Assembly (NCBI GenBank): GCA_029961745.1
Contig: CP124680.1
Span: 5,332,001-5,396,000, forward strand
From: Nocardioides sp. L-11A
GTDB taxonomy: Bacteria; Actinomycetota; Actinomycetes; Propionibacteriales; Nocardioidaceae
Direction of reading: 5' to 3'
DNA length: 64,000 nt
In this document: positions 29,187 to 38,458 of the stretch, piece after piece
How positions within the stretch are numbered: the stretch's first letter is position 1
Layout of the letters: the number at the start of each line of letters is the position of its first letter
Position numbers and translations under genes: made by a program
Notes under the pieces: model-generated
Told to the model about the DNA's origin: nothing
Seen by the model: the letters and a program-made list of their open reading frames with translations, nothing else
The model's database searches: none

Positions 29187-29837
29187 ATGGGCACCCATTC
29201 CGAGGCACTCGCCACCCTCGCATCGGCGTCGACCGCCGTGACCGCGGCCGGGGTACTCCTGGCGGCGCGACCCTGGCAGGTCCGCCGTGGTGCGGCGGCG
29301 TCCGCGCCGGCGATCCCGGCCCGGATGCGCTGGGCCCAGGCCGCCGTCGTCTCGGTCTTCGCGACGCTGGGCGCCGTGGGCCCGGTACTGACCCTGGCGC
29401 TCACCCGCGGCCGGCCGACCGCGCCGACCACGGCGTCGGTGTTCCTCGTCTTCGCGCTGGGGCTGGCCGCGGCGGCCGGGGTGTGGTCCTGGGCGCACCG
29501 GCCGGTCGCCGGCCAGGCCCGCCGCCCGGACCTGCCCGCGCCCCGGCCGCGGTCGGCTCCCGCCTCCGCTCCCGGCTCCGCCCGCGACGCCGGCGGCCGC
29601 ACCGCCCCGGAACCCGGCCCGGCGGACGTGCCGGCCGACCCGGACCGGGTGCCGACGTGGTCGATCGCCGGGCTCAGCGGGCCAGCCAGGCGGCGTACGC
29701 GTCGAACGAGAACGGTCGGCCGAGGAAGCCGGCGACCAGCTCTGCGGCATTGCCTGCGCCGCCGGGAACCAGCACCCGGTCGCGGTATCGGTGTGCCACC
29801 TCGGGTGCGAACAGGTCGGCCTCGTCGAAGGCGCTGA
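29187..29837 (+). CDS. Small membrane protein with Pro/Arg-rich tail (3' end uncertain)
   Basis: 216 residues from ATG 29187. The first 100 or so form three likely membrane segments (TAVTAAGVLLAARPW, VVSVFATLGAVGPVLTLAL, VFLVFALGLAAAAGVWSWA); the remainder is Pro/Arg-rich. The last 55 codons overlap the convergent M3 peptidase gene by 164 bases and look like a frame with no selection, so the true end may be earlier or lost. I do not recognise a family. It may belong with the surface-protein gene upstream, but a terminator lies between them. Confidence 0.5.
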   Translation: MGTHSEALATLASASTAVTAAGVLLAARPWQVRRGAAASAPAIPARMRWAQAAVVSVFATLGAVGPVLTLALTRGRPTAPTTASVFLVFALGLAAAAGVWSWAHRPVAGQARRPDLPAPRPRSAPASAPGSARDAGGRTAPEPGPADVPADPDRVPTWSIAGLSGPARRRTRRTRTVGRGSRRPALRHCLRRREPAPGRGIGVPPRVRTGRPRRRR

Positions 29838-31611
29838 ACATGTCCTTCGCGATCACCAGCGACCACATGTAGGTGTAGTAGCCGGAGCTGTAGCCGCCGA
29901 GGTGGCCGAAGCTGGCGAACATGTGGGTGCCGGCGAGATAGGGCAGCGCGGCATAGCGGTCCTGCAGCTCGATCATCCGCGCCGTCAGGTCGGGGACCTC
30001 GGCGGCGCCGCGGTCGGCGTGGAACCAGTACGACATCGCCGCGTAGAACATCTGGGTGCGGGCGTAGATGCCCTTGCCGTAGTCGTCGGCCGCCCGCATC
30101 GCGGCGACCAGCTCCGCCGGGATCGGGTCGCCCGCGGCGTCGGTGGCGAAGGTGCGCAGTACGTCGGCGTGCCAGGCCCACTCCTCGAGCATCTGACTCG
30201 GCGCCTCGACGAAGTCCCACTCGGTGGCGACACCCGCGAAGCGGAACCAGTCGCCGTGCCCGCCGAGCACGTGGTGCAGCAGATGGCCGAACTCGTGGAA
30301 CAAGGTGACCACGTGGTCGTGCTCCATCAGGCCGCGGGAGAAGTTGCAGACCAGCACCCCCTCGGGCAGCTGCTCGCCACGAACGCCGTCGGCGAGCGTG
30401 AACTGCGCGGCGTGCTTGTACTTGCCGTCGCGCGGGTGCAGGTCGAGGTGGATCCGGCCGATCCGCTCCGCCTCGTCGGTGCGGAAGACGTCGTAGACGG
30501 TGACGTCCTCGTGCCAGACGGGTACGTCGACCGGCTCGTAGCGCAGCCCGAACAGCCGGCCGGTCACGTCCAGCAGGCCCTGGCGGACCTTGGCGAAGTC
30601 GAAGTAGGCGCGCACCCGTTGCGCGTCGACGTCGTACTTCTCGGCGCGGACCAGCTCGGCGTAGTGGTTGTAGTCGTACGCCGGGACCTCGGCCGCGTCG
30701 GGGTGGTCGCGGCGGTAGCGCTCCATCAGCTGATCGAGGTCGCGACGCATCGGCTCCTCGGCCGCCGTCACGATCCGCTCGATGAACGCGGGGATCGCCG
30801 GCCCGTCGCCGATCATCTTCACGTCGGCGTCGTAGGACGGCCAGTCGGCGTACCCCACGGTCGTCGCGAGCTCGTGGCGCAGCGCGAACAGCTCGGTCAG
30901 CAGTGGCTCGGTGGTGGGCCAGCCACGGTCGAGGAAGGCGACGGTGACCTCGCGCCGGACGTCCTGGTCGCGGGCGAACATCCGCACCGGCACCGAGTCG
31001 GGATAGTCCGTCGTCACGGTGACCATGCCCTCGGCGTCGACCGGGTGGGCGCTGAGCCAGTCGTCGGGCATGCCGGCGAGCTGCTGAGGGGTCACCCGGA
31101 CCGTACGTACGTCGTCGCGGATCACCCGGCTGAACTCCTGGTCGAGCTCGGTGATCCGCTCGCGGACCTGCGCGATCCGCGCCCGGGTCGCCTCGTCCTT
31201 GTCGACGCCCGAGCGGCGGAAGTCCTCACGCACCTTGGCGAGCATCCGGGCCGCCGCGGGGTCGGCGGCCACCGCCGCGTCGTCGATCGCCGCGAAGACG
31301 TCGTACAGCCCGCGGTCCAGACCCCATGCCGTGGCGATCCGCTGTGCCTCCTGCTCGGCGGCGTCGGCGAGGTCGCGGACCTCCTCGGCGGGGTGGACGT
31401 TGCCGAAGAGCGAGCCCGCGGCGGCGGCGTTGCCGAGGTGGCCCGCGGCGCGGTCCCACTGCCGCAGCGCCTCGACCGGGTCCGCCGGTGGCGCCGCCCG
31501 CAGCGCGTCGACCAGCGCCGTCGCCCGCGCGAGCTCCGCCTCGGTGGTGGCCCGGAACCAGGTGGGCCAGTCGTCGGGGGAGGTCGGCAGGGGGAGCGGC
31601 GCGAGCGTCAT
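29674..31611 (-). CDS. M3-family zinc metallopeptidase (oligopeptidase/peptidyl-dipeptidase type)
   Basis: 645 residues, the usual M3 length. The zinc site is LFHEFGHLLHHVLGG near residue 435, with the third ligand Glu in WDFVEAPSQMLEEWAW about 25 residues later. GICVN-type cues are replaced by GVLVCNFSRG, and the substrate-gating tail HMFASFGHLGGYSSGYYTYMW is conserved. It is a cytoplasmic enzyme that trims short peptides. There is no signal peptide. The start ATG 31611 gives MTLAPLPLPTSPDDWPTWF. It is divergent from the TasA-like gene. Confidence 0.93.
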   Translation of the reverse strand: MTLAPLPLPTSPDDWPTWFRATTEAELARATALVDALRAAPPADPVEALRQWDRAAGHLGNAAAAGSLFGNVHPAEEVRDLADAAEQEAQRIATAWGLDRGLYDVFAAIDDAAVAADPAAARMLAKVREDFRRSGVDKDEATRARIAQVRERITELDQEFSRVIRDDVRTVRVTPQQLAGMPDDWLSAHPVDAEGMVTVTTDYPDSVPVRMFARDQDVRREVTVAFLDRGWPTTEPLLTELFALRHELATTVGYADWPSYDADVKMIGDGPAIPAFIERIVTAAEEPMRRDLDQLMERYRRDHPDAAEVPAYDYNHYAELVRAEKYDVDAQRVRAYFDFAKVRQGLLDVTGRLFGLRYEPVDVPVWHEDVTVYDVFRTDEAERIGRIHLDLHPRDGKYKHAAQFTLADGVRGEQLPEGVLVCNFSRGLMEHDHVVTLFHEFGHLLHHVLGGHGDWFRFAGVATEWDFVEAPSQMLEEWAWHADVLRTFATDAAGDPIPAELVAAMRAADDYGKGIYARTQMFYAAMSYWFHADRGAAEVPDLTARMIELQDRYAALPYLAGTHMFASFGHLGGYSSGYYTYMWSLVIAKDMFSAFDEADLFAPEVAHRYRDRVLVPGGAGNAAELVAGFLGRPFSFDAYAAWLAR

Positions 31612-31721: not shown

Positions 31722-31797
31722 GTGGCGAGCTGTGGAGATGGCGGGAAGATCGCGCGGACATCACGTGGAGCGTCCGTGGATCGCGGGCGAGCAGAGT
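31722..31797 (+). promoter_or_regulatory. Phased GTGG direct repeats and -10 box upstream of the TasA-like gene
   Basis: GTGGC (31722), GTGGA (31732), GTGGA (31765) and GTGGA (31776) lie in one helical phase (steps of 10, 33 and 11 bases), with weaker matches GGGAA (31743) and GCGGA (31754) filling the gap. CAGAGT (31792-31797) begins 16 bases after the last half-site. Direct repeats at 10-11 bp are the usual target of OmpR/PhoB-type response regulators. Confidence 0.6.
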
Positions 31798-31856
31798 TTC
31801 GGTCATCAGCAACGACCTGCTCACGACGAGCACGACACACCAGGAGAGCCTCCGCC

Positions 31857-32387
31857 ATGCGCATGTCCCGCAAGATCCTCGTCCCGCTCGCCACCCTCTC
31901 CGCGGCCGGCGCCATCGCTGTCGGATCCGGTGCCACCTTCACCTCGCAGTCGGGCAACACCGTCAGCGCCGTCACCGCGGGCACCCTGCAGCAGACGAAC
32001 TCCAAGGACGGCGGCGCGATCTTCGACCTGGCGAACCTCAAGCCGGGCGACACCCTGAACGGCACGCTGACTCTCACCAACACCGGCTCGCTGCCGGCCT
32101 CCTTCGGCCTGACGGAGACGTCGTCGACCAATGGCTTCACCGGGGACAACCTGAGCCTGGCAGTCACCAACACCACCACCGGCGCCACGGTCTACAGCGG
32201 CACCTTCGGCGGTCTGGTCGACGGAGCGAGGACGGACATCGGGGTCGTCCAGCCGGGGGTCGCGAACACCTTCCGCTTCACCGTGAAGCTCGCCACCGCC
32301 ACCCCGAACGCCGACCAGGGCAAGTCCGCCTCGGCCACCTATCAGTGGGACTCCGTCCAGCTCAACGGCGACACCTACGACCACTGA
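31857..32387 (+). CDS. TasA/camelysin-like exported protein with SipW-type signal peptide
   Basis: 176 residues. The N-terminus is a signal peptide of the alternate type processed by SipW (MRMSRKILVPLATLSAAG, then AVGSGATFTSQSGNTVSA). The mature part has DLANLKPGDTLNGTLTLTNTGSLPASF, matching the TasA/CalY fold of biofilm fibre subunits, and ends ATYQWDSVQLNGDTYDH. In Bacillus such proteins form extracellular amyloid-like or donor-strand fibres. The next gene encodes a SipW-type signal peptidase, as in tapA-sipW-tasA. ATG 31857 follows AGGAGAGCC. Its upstream region shares a repeat array with the Ig-like protein gene. Confidence 0.85.
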   Translation: MRMSRKILVPLATLSAAGAIAVGSGATFTSQSGNTVSAVTAGTLQQTNSKDGGAIFDLANLKPGDTLNGTLTLTNTGSLPASFGLTETSSTNGFTGDNLSLAVTNTTTGATVYSGTFGGLVDGARTDIGVVQPGVANTFRFTVKLATATPNADQGKSASATYQWDSVQLNGDTYDH

Positions 32388-32422
32388 TCCGGGCCGAACG
32401 AGCAAGGCCGTCCAGCGAGGAG

Positions 32423-33013
32423 ATGAGCACCATGGCAGCCCACCGCGACCACCCCGGCCCCGGGGTCGTGCGCCGCGCCGCCAGCGGCGTCGGCACCCTC
32501 CTGCTGGTCCTGATCTCGCTCGCGGCCCTCGCGGCGGTCCTTCCGTCGAGCCTGGGCCTCCAGCGCTACGTGATCACCGGCGGCTCGATGACCGGGACCT
32601 ACGACAAGGGATCGGTCGTCTTCGAGCGCGAGGTCCCGGCCGCCGACCTGCAGGTGGGCGACGTGATCACCTACCAGCCGCCGGTCTCGTCCGGCGTGAC
32701 CATGCTCGTCACCCACCGGGTCATCCGGATCACCCGCGACGACGAGGGCCGTCAGGTGCTCCGGACGCAGGGCGACGCCAACCCCGACCCCGATCCGTGG
32801 CGGTTCTCGCTGACGTCGGAACGCCAGCCCGTGGTGGCGTTCTCGGTCCCGTACGTCGGCTACGCGCTGATCGCCCTCGCCGACCGGGACACCCGGATGC
32901 TCGTCGTCGGCGTACCCGCCGGCCTGATCGCCCTCCTCAGCCTCGGGCAGCTCGTCACCGCCCTCCGTACTCGTCCGGGCTCGGCGCTGGGGGGTCGAGC
33001 CCGGACGGCCTGA
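32423..33013 (+). CDS. SipW-type signal peptidase I
   Basis: 196 residues. An N-terminal membrane helix (TLLLVLISLAALAAVLP) is followed by the catalytic Ser in YVITGGSMTGTYDKGS, a GDVITYQPP motif and TMLVTHRVIRI, where His replaces the Lys of ordinary bacterial type I peptidases; this Ser/His dyad is the ER/SipW class. QGDANPDPDPW and a C-terminal membrane helix (LVVGVPAGLIALLSLGQLV) complete the family pattern. It lies 35 bases after the TasA-like gene and should cleave its signal peptide and perhaps that of the Ig-like protein. ATG 32423 is chosen because GCGAGGAG precedes it. Confidence 0.92.
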   Translation: MSTMAAHRDHPGPGVVRRAASGVGTLLLVLISLAALAAVLPSSLGLQRYVITGGSMTGTYDKGSVVFEREVPAADLQVGDVITYQPPVSSGVTMLVTHRVIRITRDDEGRQVLRTQGDANPDPDPWRFSLTSERQPVVAFSVPYVGYALIALADRDTRMLVVGVPAGLIALLSLGQLVTALRTRPGSALGGRARTA

Positions 33014-33092
33014 CGGCGCTGGGCGTCGACAGGGGAACGGCCGGGCTCGCGTCGGTGGGAACGCGGGCCCGGCACTTCCTCCACTCCCTTCT

Positions 33093-33147
33093 GTGGAGAT
33101 CGCGTGTCCTCACCGTGGATCTCCCGTGGCGTCGCCATCCCTAGCGT
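33093..33147 (+). promoter_or_regulatory. 11-bp-phased GTGG repeats and -10 box upstream of the Ig-like protein gene
   Basis: GTGGA (33093), GTGTC (33104), GTGGA (33115) and GTGGC (33126) recur at exactly 11 bp. TAGCGT (33142-33147) begins 16 bases after the last one, the same offset as at the TasA-like promoter. This looks like an activator array for an OmpR/PhoB-type regulator touching RNA polymerase. Confidence 0.62.
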
Positions 33148-33195
33148 TGAGGACGACTCCGATCCGCCACCAGCCCCGTCACGAAGGACGCCGCG

Positions 33196-34998
33196 ATGCG
33201 ACACCCGCTCACCCTCCGCCTGGCCGTCCTCGGTCTGCTCAGCGCAGGGCTGATGCTGACGTCTACCGCGTCCTCGGACGCCACCTACGTGCGGTCGACC
33301 TCGAACACCGCGACCGTCCGGGCCGCCGCCGACTGGACCCCACCGGCCGTCGCCCTCGCACCGCCCGCGACGCCGGTGCAGGGCACCGTCACCCTGAGCG
33401 CGACGGCGGCCGACGCCGAGTCCGGCATCGCCTCGGTCGTCGTCCAGTACCTCGCGCCGGGCGACAGCTCCTGGACGACGCTCTGCACGACCACGGTGGC
33501 GCCGTTCAGCTGCGCCTGGAACACCCGCGCCGGCGTCGACGGCGGGTACGCCCTCCGGGCCCGCGCGGTCAACGGAGCCGGCTACACCACTGTGTCGGAC
33601 TCCGTGTCCACCACGGTCGCCAACAACGTCCTCGTCGTGCTCGGCGACCCCGGCGAGGTCGTCCGCGGCAGCGTCTCGCTGAAGACCAGCGTCTACAACG
33701 GGGGGCTCCTTCCGTGGCTGGTCTCCGTCCAGTACACGACCAACGGGGGCACGAACTGGAAGACACTGTGCACCGGCCTGAGCGCGCCGTTCACGTGCAC
33801 CTGGTCCACCACGACCTTCAGCAACGACTCGTTCGACCTCCGGGCCGTCGCGACGGCGGGCCTGACCTCGGCAACGTCGGCGGTCGTCAGCGACGTCCTC
33901 GTCGACAACGTCGCCCCGACCGTCGCCATGGTCGACCCCGGCTCGCCGCTCAGCGGTACGGCGACCTTCGCCGCCACCGCTGGCGACGTGGGGTCGGGCG
34001 TGCAGCAGGTGGTGCTGCAGTACGCCGCGGGCGGGGCGGGCTACCAGAACCTGTGCGTGCTCACCGCCGACCCCTACTCCTGCCGCTATCCGACGACGAC
34101 CCTGGCCGACGGCACGTACGCGTTCCGGGCCGTCGCGACCGACACGGCCGGCAACACGGCGACGTCGGCGGCGGTGACCGGACGCGTGGTCGACAACACC
34201 GTGTCCTCGGTGTCGCTCGACGATCCCGGCGCCTTCTTGTCGGGGCAGGCGACCATCACCGCCCAGGCCAACTCCACCGCCGGGATCGCCTCGGTCCGCA
34301 TCCAGTACGCCCCCGGCGGGACGATCGCCTGGACCGACCTGTGCACCGTGACCGCCGCGCCGTACTCCTGCATCTGGGACACCACGACCGTGGCGAACGG
34401 CGTCTACGACCTGCGGGCCGTCCTGACGGACGGCCGGGGTGCGACGTCGGCATCGGCGATCCTCGGCGGCCGCAGGATCGACAACAGCAGACTTCGCGCG
34501 GTCGACGTGCAGACCGGCAACGGCGAGGGGACCGCCGGCCGCGTCGACGCGGGCGACACCGTCACGCTCACCTACAGCGACGTCGTCGCTCCCACCAGCA
34601 TCACGCCCGGTTGGTCGGGCGCGGCCCTGCCGGTGACCCTGCGGCTGCGTGACGGCAACCTGCTCGGGGGCACCGGCAAGACCGACGCGATCGACGTGCT
34701 CCGCAACGGGGCCTCCGTCCAGCTCGGCTCGGTCGGGCTGCGGGAGGACTACGTCAAGGGGCGCAAGACCGTCCAGTTCAATGCCACCCTGACCGCCGCG
34801 ACGATCACCGTCGACGGCGTGCAGCGGACCGTGGTGACCGTGACCGTCGGGACCCTGTCCGGCGGGAGCGGACTGCGCACGGTGTCCACGGCGTCCACGA
34901 TGGTGTGGACGCCGTCCACGGCGGCCCTGTCCACGACCGGCGGCGCCTGCGCGGCAGCGCCGGCCGCCGAGTCCGGCGCGCCGGACCGGGAGTTCTGA
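33196..34998 (+). CDS. Secreted protein with four bacterial Ig-like repeats
   Basis: 600 residues. The N-terminal signal is followed by DATYVRSTSNTATVRAAADW, which resembles the post-cleavage segment of the TasA-like protein (A-T-F/Y then N-T), so it may also be a SipW substrate. Four Ig-like modules of about 95 residues follow (VTLSATAADAESGIASVVVQ; VSLKTSVYNGG; ATFAATAGDVGSGVQQVVLQ; ATITAQANSTAGIASVRIQY), each with a conserved Cys pair (L-C-T...F-S-C-x-W). A C-terminal domain (about 430-580) differs, with GDTVTLTYSDVV. It is probably an extracellular adhesin or fibre-associated protein. There is no anchor motif. Confidence 0.8.
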   Translation: MRHPLTLRLAVLGLLSAGLMLTSTASSDATYVRSTSNTATVRAAADWTPPAVALAPPATPVQGTVTLSATAADAESGIASVVVQYLAPGDSSWTTLCTTTVAPFSCAWNTRAGVDGGYALRARAVNGAGYTTVSDSVSTTVANNVLVVLGDPGEVVRGSVSLKTSVYNGGLLPWLVSVQYTTNGGTNWKTLCTGLSAPFTCTWSTTTFSNDSFDLRAVATAGLTSATSAVVSDVLVDNVAPTVAMVDPGSPLSGTATFAATAGDVGSGVQQVVLQYAAGGAGYQNLCVLTADPYSCRYPTTTLADGTYAFRAVATDTAGNTATSAAVTGRVVDNTVSSVSLDDPGAFLSGQATITAQANSTAGIASVRIQYAPGGTIAWTDLCTVTAAPYSCIWDTTTVANGVYDLRAVLTDGRGATSASAILGGRRIDNSRLRAVDVQTGNGEGTAGRVDAGDTVTLTYSDVVAPTSITPGWSGAALPVTLRLRDGNLLGGTGKTDAIDVLRNGASVQLGSVGLREDYVKGRKTVQFNATLTAATITVDGVQRTVVTVTVGTLSGGSGLRTVSTASTMVWTPSTAALSTTGGACAAAPAAESGAPDREF

Positions 34999-35393
34999 TG
35001 AGCGCTCCCACGCGAGGCTCGCAGACCGCCGCGGCGCTCACCGGACTGCTCGGCCTGGGCCAGCTGTGGTGGACGAACGGGAGTGAGCGCACCGCGGCCA
35101 CCGCGCTCGTCCTCGCACCCCTCAGCCTGCTCGCCGCGGCCGCTCTCGCCCGGATCAACTGCCTCGAGACGCGGCTGGCCGTCGTCCTGGTCGTGACCGC
35201 CCCGCTCGCGCTCACGGCCCTGGCGCTGACGATCGGCCTGCCCGGTCAGCCGCGGCAGGGGTTCGGCGTCGCGGCGCTGGTGGGCCTGGTGCTCCCCTTC
35301 TCCGTGCTGGTGGCTATCGACGTCGACCGACGCATCCGGTCCCGTCGGGCGCGGTCCGCCGGCGCGCACGCCGAGGACCCCTATGCTCGGTGA
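34998..35393 (+). CDS. Small integral membrane protein, function unknown
   Basis: 131 residues. The ATG overlaps the stop of the Ig-like gene (TGATG). It has four hydrophobic segments (TAAALTGLLGLGQLWW, TALVLAPLSLLAAAALA, AVVLVVTAPLALTALALTI, GVAALVGLVLPFSVLVAI) and a basic C-terminal tail DRRIRSRRARSA. The arrangement resembles small four-helix membrane proteins of actinobacteria. I do not recognise a family. Its place between the exoprotein and the two-component genes suggests a part in export or in signalling. The -10 box of the next gene lies inside its 3' end. Confidence 0.7.
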   Translation: MSAPTRGSQTAAALTGLLGLGQLWWTNGSERTAATALVLAPLSLLAAAALARINCLETRLAVVLVVTAPLALTALALTIGLPGQPRQGFGVAALVGLVLPFSVLVAIDVDRRIRSRRARSAGAHAEDPYAR

Positions 35394-36155
35394 GTGCCCG
35401 TGCGCCTGCTGATCGTCGAGGACGACGATGCCATCGCAGCCCCACTCCTGCGCGCCGTGCAGCGCGAGGGGTACGACGTGGTCCGGGTCGCGGCCGGGCG
35501 GCCGGCGATCGACCTGGTCGCCGCCGGCGGCGTGGACCTCCTGCTGCTCGACCTCGGTCTGCCCGACATGGACGGACTCGACGTGTGCCGCCAGCTCCGG
35601 GCCGACGGCTTCGTGGGGGGCATCCTGATCCTCACCGCCCGGGCCGGGGAGCTGGACCGGGTCGTGGGACTCGATGTCGGCGCCGACGACTACCTCGCGA
35701 AGCCGTTCAGCCTGTCGGAGCTGCTGGCCCGGGTACGCGCGCTGCTGCGTCGATCGCCCCCGCGGACGGGGGCCGACGACGCACCCGAGGCATCCGATCG
35801 GGCGCCCGCACCGCCAGCCCCGACGGCGGCGGTCCCTGACCCGTCGCCCGGCGGAGGCGACCGCTTCCGTGTCGACCGGTCCGCACGTCGCGCCTGGGTC
35901 GGCGACACGGAGCTGACCCTGACGGCGAAGGAGTTCGACGTCCTCGCGCTGCTGGACGACCACCGCGGAGCGGTGGTCACCCGCGAGGATCTGATGGCTC
36001 GGGTGTGGGACGAGAACTGGTTCGGGTCGACCAAGACCCTCGATACCACGGTCGGACGGCTGCGCCAGAAGCTCCAGGACGGCTCCGCTCCGATCCGGCT
36101 CGACACCGTCCGTGGTGTGGGATTCCGACTGGAGGGCGCCGCGCCCGATGCGTGA
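35394..36155 (+). CDS. OmpR/PhoB-family response regulator
   Basis: 253 residues. The receiver domain has the acidic pocket EDDD (9-12), phospho-acceptor Asp 53 in LLLLDLGLPDMDG, the switch Thr in LILTARAG and Lys in DDYLAKPFS. A Pro/Ala linker (about 125-155) leads to a winged-helix domain with ELTLTAKEFDVLALL, VVTREDLMARVWDENWFG and TTVGRLRQKLQ. GTG 35394 directly follows the previous stop; TATGCT lies 6 bases before it, so it also has its own leaderless promoter. It overlaps the kinase gene by 8 bases. It is the best candidate to bind the phased GTGG repeats of this module. Confidence 0.93.
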   Translation: MPVRLLIVEDDDAIAAPLLRAVQREGYDVVRVAAGRPAIDLVAAGGVDLLLLDLGLPDMDGLDVCRQLRADGFVGGILILTARAGELDRVVGLDVGADDYLAKPFSLSELLARVRALLRRSPPRTGADDAPEASDRAPAPPAPTAAVPDPSPGGGDRFRVDRSARRAWVGDTELTLTAKEFDVLALLDDHRGAVVTREDLMARVWDENWFGSTKTLDTTVGRLRQKLQDGSAPIRLDTVRGVGFRLEGAAPDA

Positions 36156-37422
36156 GCGGCTGGTCATCGCGTTCGTCGGCCTGACCATGGCCGTGATCGG
36201 ACTGTACGGCGTGCCGCGCGCCTACTTCCTCGCCGACCTGGTCCGCGACCAGGAGCGCGCGAAGCTCGACGGCACGGCGACCGCGCTGCAGGAGCTGTTC
36301 GACGAGCACCGCTCCGCGCACGGCACGGTCGATGAGGACCTGCTCGTCGTCGGCCTGGCTGCGGCGGACCGGGTCGAGCTGACGCCGATCGACGGCGAGC
36401 CGCTGATGGTCGGGGCCGAGCGCGACGGCTCCGGCGGGATCACGGTCCGCCGGAGCCTGGAGGACGGCAGCGTCCTGCGGCTGAGCGTCTCCGGCGACAC
36501 CGTGGGCGCGACCGTCCGCGACGCGATCATGCCGCTGGTGCTGCTCGGCCTGGCGCTGGCGCTGGTCTCGGCGATCCTCGGCCTCGTCCTGGCGCGTCGC
36601 CTCTCACGCCCCTTCCAGGAGCTCGCGCTGTTGTCGCGCGAACTCGGTCACGGCCGCTTCGACATCGACGTGCCCGCCTACTCCGTCCCGGAGGCCGAGG
36701 CGATCGGATCCTCGCTGCGGGGGGCGGCTGAGCAGCTCGACGATCTCGTGCGCCGTGAGCGGGAGTTCGCTGCCAACGCCTCGCACCAGCTGCGCACTCC
36801 CGTCACGGCGCTACGACTCAGCCTCGAGGACCTGACCCTGTGGCCGGAGACCGCACCCACCGTGGCGACGGAGCTGGAGCGAGGCATCGGCGAGCTCGAC
36901 CGGCTGAGCACGGCGATCGACGAGCTGCTCGCCCTGGCCCGCGGCCGGCGCATCGACGCGCAGGAGGAGGTCGACCTCGTCGCCCTGGTGCGGGCGAGCT
37001 CCGCGCGCTGGTCGCGTCGTCTGGCTGCCGAGTCGCGGGACCTCGTCGTCCGACAGTCGGGCCGGCGTTCGCGGGCCCGGGTCCCGGTCGGACCGCTGGA
37101 GCAGGTCCTCGACGTCCTGATCGACAACGCCCGTACCCACGGACGCGGCACCATCACGGTCGAGGTCCGCGACGCGGGCACCCATCTGGAGGTCGGGGTC
37201 GGCGACGAGGGGATCGATCACCTCGGCCCGGAGGTGTTCCACCGGGGCGTCAGCACCGGCACCGACGGCTCCGAGGGCATCGGCCTGGCGGTCGCCTCCG
37301 AGCTGGCCGAGGTGTGCGGCGGGCACCTGTCACTCGACGCGACGTCCCCCACCACCCGGTTCGTGCTGTGGCTCCCGCTCCGCGACCGCGGCGCCGATCC
37401 GCCGGCCCCTACCACCGAGTGA
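36148..37422 (+). CDS. Membrane sensor histidine kinase
   Basis: 424 residues. Two membrane helices (about 5-25 and 125-150) enclose an extracytoplasmic sensor of about 100 residues; a HAMP linker follows (LARRLSRPFQELALLSREL). The phospho-accepting His lies in FAANASHQLRTPVTALRLSL near residue 215; the ATPase part has VLIDNARTHG (N box), VGDEGIDHL and EGIGLAVASELAEVCGGHL (G boxes). It should phosphorylate the regulator encoded just upstream. The ligand is not known. The sensor is small and without Cys, and may sense surface or cell-envelope conditions. Confidence 0.93.
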   Translation: MRERLVIAFVGLTMAVIGLYGVPRAYFLADLVRDQERAKLDGTATALQELFDEHRSAHGTVDEDLLVVGLAAADRVELTPIDGEPLMVGAERDGSGGITVRRSLEDGSVLRLSVSGDTVGATVRDAIMPLVLLGLALALVSAILGLVLARRLSRPFQELALLSRELGHGRFDIDVPAYSVPEAEAIGSSLRGAAEQLDDLVRREREFAANASHQLRTPVTALRLSLEDLTLWPETAPTVATELERGIGELDRLSTAIDELLALARGRRIDAQEEVDLVALVRASSARWSRRLAAESRDLVVRQSGRRSRARVPVGPLEQVLDVLIDNARTHGRGTITVEVRDAGTHLEVGVGDEGIDHLGPEVFHRGVSTGTDGSEGIGLAVASELAEVCGGHLSLDATSPTTRFVLWLPLRDRGADPPAPTTE

Positions 37423-37423
37423 G

Positions 37424-38458
37424 TCAGCGCGAGGTCAGGGTCAGCGTGCCCTCGACCCGGTCCCAGTCGGACGGGGTGTTCTGCTCCCCGACCCAGCCGA
37501 CCACGCGGTAGGTGATCCCGCCCGCCGTCGCCGCGACCTGGGTGAGCTCGATGCTGCTGATGTCGAGCACCGTCCCCTCGGTGGTCGTGGTCGAGGGATC
37601 GCACGGGAACTGTCCCCGGCCGGTCCGCGTCGAGGTCGCCGACCAGTCGGCCCGCAGGGACAGGCCGACCCGCAGGCCACTCAGGTCGGTGCGGGTGAAG
37701 CGGGCGTTGATGTCGTCGTTGAAGCGGTCGCCGGCATAGGCCAGCGTGCCGCCGCCGGCCTCAGTGCGGTCGAGTGCGATACGGCAGTTGTCCGACTCCT
37801 CGAGGGCGGTCACCGAGCCGGCGCGCTCGTAGGTGCTGCCGGTGCTGGCGAAGGTCGGGTTGTGCGGGTCGCCGTCGACGGCCATCGAGATCGAGGCGGA
37901 CGCCGTGTGTCGCCAGGTCTCGACCCGACCCGTGGTCGGGTCGGTGCGCTCCCCCTCGTCGAGGAAGGTGAGCCGGCCGACCAGGGCCGCGTGCAGGGCC
38001 GCGTCGACGTCGACCTGGCTCCGCGAGACCCGGCAGTTGTTGCGCTCCTTGGTCTCCTTCACCTTCGTGGTCGCGTCCGCGCAGGCGAGCACCCAGTACT
38101 TCCCGGCGGCCGTCACGGGGACGTGCACCGGACCGCTGACGGTCTTCTTCTTGCGGGGCTTGATCCGCTTCACCGCCACGCTCCCGCCGACGATGTCGTC
38201 AGCGCTCCGCACCCGGTCCCGGGAGAGGTAGAAGCGCAGCGAGCTCCGCTTGGCGCTCGCGCGGCCCTTGTTGGCCACGGTGGCGCCGAGGTTGAAGGAG
38301 CTGCCGTGTCGCACCGTCGTCGGCGGCGTGCTCAGCGCGGAGACCACCAGGTCCGCCCGCTGGGGAGCCGCGCTCGCACCGGGCGTCGTCCCGAGCGTCG
38401 CCAGTGACGCTCCGAGCACCGTGGTCGCCGTCAGAATCGCCGTACGTCGCGCCTGCAT
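37424..38458 (-). CDS. Secreted CARDB-domain protein
   Basis: 344 residues: a Sec signal ending ATLGTTPGASAAP near residue 31, then a CARDB (cell-adhesion-related) domain at about 35-150 (ADLVVSALSTPPTTVRHGSS, NKGRASAKRSSLRFYLS, YWVLACADATTKVKETKERN). The C-terminal 190 residues form a beta-rich region with two Cys (CRIALDRTEAGGG, FPCDPSTT) that I do not recognise. CARDB modules occur in surface adhesion proteins. It is convergent with the histidine kinase gene, one base apart, so it may belong functionally to the exoprotein module without sharing its promoter; the GTGG array is absent upstream. Confidence 0.78.
   Translation of the reverse strand: MQARRTAILTATTVLGASLATLGTTPGASAAPQRADLVVSALSTPPTTVRHGSSFNLGATVANKGRASAKRSSLRFYLSRDRVRSADDIVGGSVAVKRIKPRKKKTVSGPVHVPVTAAGKYWVLACADATTKVKETKERNNCRVSRSQVDVDAALHAALVGRLTFLDEGERTDPTTGRVETWRHTASASISMAVDGDPHNPTFASTGSTYERAGSVTALEESDNCRIALDRTEAGGGTLAYAGDRFNDDINARFTRTDLSGLRVGLSLRADWSATSTRTGRGQFPCDPSTTTTEGTVLDISSIELTQVAATAGGITYRVVGWVGEQNTPSDWDRVEGTLTLTSR

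Follow-up and report, generated by a model that had tools for sequence, protein, structure and literature searches.

Conserved 11-bp half-site arrays at both promoters of a TasA/SipW cassette in Nocardioides sp. L-11A, probable operators of the cassette's own OmpR-type regulator

Two promoters of one gene cassette are each preceded by an array of GTGG-type half-sites at 11-bp steps, with a -10-like box at a fixed distance from the last repeat, in the window analysed here (the whole 64,000-nucleotide stretch of the Nocardioides sp. L-11A genome). The array is real and conserved and, judged from the sequence, appears to be accounted for well by an OmpR-type operator that serves a dedicated two-component system. 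We think it very likely that arrays of this kind are a conserved operator type for the regulator of the cassette, encoded at 35394-36155, which would replace a -35 element and activate both transcription units. The features concerned are the following.

29674-31611, minus strand: M3 peptidase gene, divergent, bordering the cassette
31722-31786, plus strand: TasA-side half-site array, a distal half-site at 31722 and five in-register 11-mers
31792-31797, plus strand: CAGAGT, -10-like box of the TasA promoter, with a conserved column pattern in the matrix from relatives
31857-32387, plus strand: TasA/camelysin-like secreted protein, 176 aa (PF12389, 28.6 bits, cut-off 22.5)
32423-33013, plus strand: SipW/archaeal-type signal peptidase I (TIGR02228, 75.5 bits, cut-off 51.85)
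33093-33136, plus strand: Ig-side half-site array, four 11-mers at 33093, 33104, 33115 and 33126
33142-33147, plus strand: TAGCGT, -10-like box of the Ig promoter, with a conserved column pattern in the matrix from relatives
33196-34998, plus strand: Ig-like (Big_7) exoprotein, 600 aa (PF17957, 70.1 bits)
34998-35393, plus strand: small protein, 131 aa, with no Pfam or NCBIfam match
35394-36155, plus strand: OmpR-type response regulator (PF00072, 87.8 bits; PF00486, 81.9 bits)
36148-37422, plus strand: histidine kinase (HAMP, HisKA, HATPase_c), open frame from 36112, ATG at 36148
37424-38458, minus strand: CARDB-domain gene, convergent, bordering the cassette

The cassette consists of six plus-strand genes, for the TasA/camelysin-like protein, the SipW-type peptidase, the Ig exoprotein, the small protein, the OmpR-type regulator and the histidine kinase. 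The first product is placed in the camelysin family by Pfam and is related to TasA by profile, as a profile of 31 orthologues matches the solved TasA chains 5of1 (E 1e-4) and 8aur (E 1.9e-4). Its AlphaFold2 model (mean pLDDT 66.5) has a β-sandwich core, with residues 8-51 at low confidence; the Foldseek matches of the model, which bear on a TasA-like jelly-roll fold, were weak (query TM-score <=0.39 among the best 50 matches listed), and the archaeal filaments 7ueg and 7pnb were among the weak matches listed. A fibre or matrix role of the protein is suggested by its family. TasA-family protein and SipW-type peptidase share one locus, PF12389 and TIGR02228 both scoring over cut-off, and the peptidase gene has a second ATG start at 32432. 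The Bacillus-specific equivalog models NF046066 and NF046067 were not reached by the TasA-like protein or the peptidase (56.3 bits for NF046067, against a cut-off of 190). The nearest solved chain to the regulator is RegX3 (2oqr, E 2.8e-47). D53, T81 and K103 of the regulator, which we take to be the phospho-acceptor aspartate and the switch residues, respectively, are conserved in at least 94% of 31 orthologues. The kinase gene adjoins the regulator gene, its ATG at 36148 overlapping the end of the latter; upstream, the ATG of the small gene overlaps the stop codon of the Ig gene, and its own stop abuts the GTG of the regulator gene. Because these frames overlap or abut, the genes for the Ig protein, the small protein, the regulator and the kinase look like one operon behind the second array.

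On the TasA side, 11-mers start at 31732, 31743, 31754, 31765 and 31776, that is, 60, 49, 38, 27 and 16 bp before the box, and GTGG itself starts at 31722, 31732, 31765 and 31776. The Ig-side 11-mers begin 49, 38, 27 and 16 bp before the Ig box, with GTGG at 33093, 33115 and 33126 and GTGTC at 33104. Every half-site coordinate of the original prediction proved right when the window was re-read, and so did its statement that both boxes begin exactly 16 bp after the start of the last GTGG (31776 to 31792; 33126 to 33142). It had described steps of 10-11 bp on one grid; the grid stands, but close to the promoter each step measures exactly 11 bp, and the GTGG at 31722 represents a 10-bp step, one base off the 11-bp register. 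The view that the two promoters are unrelated had to be abandoned, both being parts of one conserved cassette. The repeats are direct, in tandem and on one helix face (resultant length 0.90 at period 11, for offsets 10-60). Transcription is predicted to start near 31805 at the TasA promoter and near 33153-33155 at the Ig promoter, and a conserved C-A, some 12-13 bp downstream of the first base of the box, would suit a start there. A search of Rfam at both promoters returned nothing beyond a chance microRNA match (E 0.61).

The genome is a single contig of 5,684,321 bases (5.68 Mb); genome-wide tests were pattern searches, with the background taken from the window. The two strands of the window hold 183 [TCG]AG[ACG]GT boxes (82 + 101). 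Three in-register GTGG were found at the two promoters only, and none of the remaining boxes had two or more; in a control with ten shifted registers per strand, at most 3 boxes had two or more GTGG. The joint pattern GTGGANNNNCCGTGGN12YAGMGTT, allowed up to 3 mismatches in the whole genome, gave 10 matches, and its reverse gave 25; two of the 10 are exact, being the two promoters of the window, and the other 8 have 3 mismatches. A looser pattern gave 63 matches at up to 2 mismatches, against 115 when reversed; it too was exact only at these promoters, and neither of two other sites, each with 1 mismatch, reached 8 bits with the weight matrix described below, which leaves no third good site in the genome. 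A three-GTGG pattern with a spacing that fits neither promoter gave 4 matches, none of them at the locus, and its control also gave 4. The genome search proposed along with the original prediction, for 11-bp repeats with a box at +16, thus has its exact matches only at the two promoters, and in this genome the arrays are restricted to these two places.

With the peptidase as query, 70 loci were obtained from a genome collection, of which 33 (L015-L047; mostly Nocardioides, Aeromicrobium, Knoellia and other actinobacteria) were compared. The genes for TasA, SipW and the Ig protein occur together in 31 of the 33; in L043 TasA and Ig lie away from SipW, and L045 is without Ig. The regulator is present in 30 of the 33 cassette loci. 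As to the other three, L024 ends within the Ig gene, L044 has TasA and the regulator on another contig, and L045 has none. The upstream regions numbered 69, window included (36 TasA-type and 33 Ig-type), and held 77 boxes. In these regions the distance from GTGG to a box downstream was 16 bp in 41 cases and 27 bp in 32, and it was 38, 49 and 60 bp in 16, 28 and 5 cases, respectively. All other offsets occurred at most 4 times each, and around 80 control boxes elsewhere in these loci every GTGG offset occurred at most 2 times. An iterative weight matrix (the array model) covered 60 of the 69 regions, 35 of the 36 TasA-type and 25 of the 33 Ig-type; of the 8 Ig-type regions that it misses, those of L035, L040 and L044 keep, by eye, a GTGG 16 bp before the box. 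Because the matrix was built on the same data, it was retested leaving each locus out. Under these conditions 59 of the 60 sites were recovered at >=20 bits; the TasA site of L023 was lost, and that of L043 lay at the threshold. Neither L015-L047 nor the window had an unrelated place that reached 20 bits. No array-model site at 20 bits was found in L045 and L048-L084 (38 loci with distant peptidase relatives).

Read 5' to 3', the consensus of the array is GTTCCGAACY, GTGGAGATCGC, GKGGAnnTCGY, GTGGAnnnCCC, GTGGATCGCnGCTCCC and TAGCGTT. The repeat unit is approximately GTGGAnnTCnC, in four to five copies and sometimes more further upstream, and in this operator type a TAGNGT-type -10 box starts 16 bp after the start of the last repeat. 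A model trained on distant genera (13 sites from 8 loci of Knoellia, Janibacter, Intrasporangium, Serinicoccus, Terrabacter and Arthrobacter) scored, in the window, 34.7 bits at 33142, 26.9 at 31781 and 19.6 at 31792, and then -2.2; the match at 31781 is the TasA array shifted by one repeat. An Aeromicrobium-only model (14 sites) found in the window only the two promoters, the next best place scoring below zero. Models trained on Ig promoters recover the TasA promoter, and models trained on TasA promoters recover the Ig promoter. Aligned on the register that the matrix sets, the arrays of the window and those of the more distant genera agree at 52% and 56% of positions, and their flanks at 30-40%; agreement in the 3' flank of the Ig promoters is 40%. 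A corrected pattern, run on 32 of the 33 cassette genomes (that of L032 being left out), gave 35 matches against 7 for its reverse. Of these, 30 lie in cassette loci and 2 in L140, a further locus with TasA and regulator; the remaining 3 are elsewhere, one of them (L141) without an array-model match. In 198 genomes of the family the same pattern gave 74 matches in 55 genomes, against 26 when reversed, and a control with the wrong spacing (CT one base late) matched in none of the 198.

Several further observations concern the layout of the related loci. Extra GTGG(C/A) repeats lie upstream of the TasA arrays in, for example, L015, L017 and L026. Further upstream than -45, the step from one GTGG to the next is 10 bp in 13 cases and 11 bp in 7; a 10-bp distal pitch is suggested, with the periodicity at offsets 61-129 similar for 10, 10.5 and 11 (0.52, 0.56 and 0.56). 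In L022, L026, L028 and L031 the Ig array is apparently contained in the 3'-terminal part of the sipW frame, the Ig start being extrapolated. The TasA array is present and the Ig array absent in L027, L036, L039 and L046; in L039 and L046 the gap between SipW and Ig is about 19 and -9 nt, and one transcript is therefore likely. L030 and L034 carry two TasA-like genes each, every one with its own array, and the two promoters in L034 are nearly identical. In L021 (8957-9684) the regulator matches as two overlapping pieces in different frames, which may reflect a frameshift or a sequencing error.

The only PF00486 match in the window is the 35394-36155 gene, as had been claimed for OmpR-type regulators. 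The locus combines a regulator with receiver and winged-helix (Trans_reg_C) domains, tandem repeats and an adjacent kinase gene, as expected of the OmpR/PhoB type. The proposal that the arrays are of the kind bound by OmpR/PhoB-type activators gains support from sequence and gene context, with a geometry conserved far beyond the window, and the same holds for 35394-36155 as the candidate reader, given the 30 of 33 loci and the arrays that stand before regulator operons. At <=1 mismatch, sites were found in 24 of the 198 family genomes. The regulator (E 1e-55) was found in 20 of these 24 and in 45 of the 174 others, with a Fisher p of 7.6e-8 that overstates independence, because the genomes are related and several of the 198 also supplied the model; the reversed pattern showed no association (p 0.65). 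At <=2 mismatches, the regulator was found in 34 of 55 genomes with a site as against 31 of 143 others. Regulator-positive genomes without a site number 45 of 65 at 1 mismatch and 31 of 65 at 2, in part a result of the strict pattern, and the regulator search missed at least one regulator (G086). The four site-bearing genomes without the regulator at E 1e-55 (G137, G181, G182 and G194) each have a relative with about 60% identity over the receiver domain. In G137 this relative directly follows the array (L209); in the other three the nearest regulators are weaker matches (E 1e-41 to 1e-43). At L209 and L211 a regulator operon that lacks TasA directly follows the array.

A sister branch of the regulator was represented by 24 more distant genes (E 1e-79 or weaker), from which 20 loci were taken. 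A same-strand 11-bp GTGG array lies within 2.5 kb upstream in 8 of the 20 loci, the other 12 being without one; the controls gave one opposite-strand position in the 20 loci and a window background of 1 in 124,252. Four of the 20 loci have a TasA-family gene (31-33% identity) placed after the array and before the regulator. The genome G085 (locus L206) has kept TasA, array and kinase, and no regulator was found in it at E 1e-40. At L206 (4074-6102), the TasA-like gene with its array is directly followed by an intact-looking histidine kinase gene.

Another OmpR-type regulator, such as MtrA or a PhoP/RegX3 orthologue, might bind the arrays, either by itself or jointly with the cassette regulator, a reading that we consider unlikely. 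The genome has 21 PF00486 matches, that is, 20 besides the cassette regulator, some genomes carry array-like sites outside the cassette, and a GTTACC- or GTTCC-type element that resembles an MtrA half-site often opens the array. MtrA sites, as given in passages of two papers, are GtnAcC-n5-GTnAcn, direct repeats at an 11-bp pitch (PMC13189361; PMC5650626). The pitch is shared, but the core of the arrays is GTGGA, the array columns do not follow GtnAcC-n5-GTnAcn, and only the opening GTTACC/GTTCC of some arrays is MtrA-like; a literature search on MtrA with GTTACC found no paper. PHO boxes of Streptomyces PhoP/RegX3 and the site of Microlunatus PolR likewise have OmpR-type regulators on tandem 11-nt direct repeats, the PolR site being GTTCACnnnnnGTTCaC and the Streptomyces PhoP unit GtTCAccnnnn in the passages available from PMC6754071. 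RegX3 is also the nearest solved relative of the window regulator. However, PHO boxes have a GTTCAC core and serve phosphate genes, whereas the window arrays have a GTGGA core and serve a TasA/SipW cassette at two sites in the genome, and the consensus GTGGAnnTCnC does not contain the GTTCAC-type 11-nt unit. The repeated unit is thus neither GTnAC nor GTTCAC, a global regulator should have many sites where this genome has two, and across the family genomes the sites accompany the cassette-type regulator.

If the cassette regulator reads the arrays, the kinase would phosphorylate it, and the phosphorylated regulator would bind side by side along one helix face of each array. It would stand in for a -35 element and recruit RNA polymerase holoenzyme, because the two promoter-proximal repeats occupy the position expected of the -35; repeats that end in a copy 16 bp before the box leave no room for a separate -35 at the usual distance. 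The first promoter would switch on TasA-SipW and the second the Ig protein, the small protein, the regulator and the kinase, and repeats further upstream would add regulator subunits, steepening the response. Because the second unit holds the regulator's own gene, in frames that overlap or abut, the regulator probably exerts positive feedback on its own operon. Binding, its dependence on phosphorylation, activation rather than repression, and a matrix function of the proteins we infer from the sequence.

Passages of PMC10936776 describe SARP sites as direct repeats spaced by 11 or 22 bp, of which the last lies 8 bp from the -10 element. In the same passages, the afs box spans -40 to -19, its two 11-bp repeats overlapping the -35 and the spacer, and the SARP AfsR, which holds sigma region 4, takes over from the -35 contact (PMC10936776). 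The window arrays share the repeat spacing and the position near the -10 with these operators, within 1 bp. With a transcription start 13 bp downstream of the first base of the box, the last two repeats would cover -40 to -19; as this is where the afs box lies, we expect sigma adaptation or a PhoB-like mode of activation. The activation mode of PhoB is similar to sigma adaptation; a literature search on PhoB with sigma found no paper.

It is very improbable that the box and the last GTGG form the promoter of an alternative sigma factor, the repeats being secondary. Conservation is indeed among the highest in the columns of the box, of the last GTGG and of the T four bases upstream of the box, but such a promoter needs one upstream element, against four to five copies every 11 bp, and the 16 bp from GTGG to box leave a spacer of about 10-12 bp. 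The usual spacers of the sigma-70 family are longer, and TAGNNT suits the principal sigma factor. Binding of the array by a SARP-type activator, for which the geometry within 1 bp of SARP sites speaks, as does a heptamer GTGGATC that ends 9 bp before the box, has less to recommend it still: the single PF00486 domain of the window belongs to a two-component response regulator, in the loci and genomes compared it is this response regulator that was seen to travel with the arrays, and the arrays are longer than SARP operators. Chance or base composition, in a genome of 72% G+C whose window holds GTGG 380 times on one strand and 430 times on the other, is scarcely credible in the face of the reversed and shifted-register controls and of conservation across genera, which uphold the original view that the geometry is hard to explain by chance.

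Array-like sites (16-40 bits) also lie near 6 kb in nine loci from other genomes of the Nocardioides group, G181, G182 and G194 being among such genomes (L202, L203, L204, L205, L207, L208, L210, L212 and L213). The order here is GTTACCGAACG, then GTGG at 11-bp steps, then TAGNGTT or similar, and a non-coding-looking stretch of 150-250 nt follows, containing GGGGGGA loops in repeated copies and, in many cases, a hairpin that resembles a terminator. No regulator was found within the 12 kb examined at these loci, and 6 of the 9 lie about 2 kb from a tRNA gene. At gathering level the nine stretches matched no Rfam family except tRNA; that of L208 has a folding z of -2.35. Possibly, the stretches form a family of small RNAs. 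No such site was found in the Nocardioides sp. L-11A genome. Tentatively, and with more doubt than confidence, the loci might be drawn together as a widespread actinobacterial matrix switch, in which an autoregulating two-component system would act through long 11-bp arrays and SARP-like sigma adaptation on TasA-type fibres and an Ig exoprotein, the operator type having been recruited in relatives for small RNAs with GGGGGGA hairpin loops.

TasA-type fibres are known mainly from Bacillus, under other regulators; SinR/SinI, which control the TasA operon there, were not seen at the window cassette. As in Bacillus tapA-sipW-tasA and in the sipW-calY operon of B. cereus (arrangement as given in passages of PMC10151520), a TasA/camelysin-family protein stands beside a SipW-type peptidase, but the window cassette adds an Ig exoprotein and its own two-component system. 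Among the titles listed in the literature searches, none was on this operator or cassette; the motif, its targets and the cassette are new as far as the literature was searched, OmpR-type operators being already known as a kind. Nocardioides, Aeromicrobium, Knoellia, Janibacter and other genera have a TasA/SipW cassette with its own sensor system and a recognisable operator. This operator is of use for annotating the regulon and gives exact footprints, and response regulator sites at the position of SARP sites may help to decide whether sigma adaptation is general in actinobacteria. For the organism itself, a soil-type actinobacterium, the arrays look like a dedicated on-switch for an extracellular fibre system.
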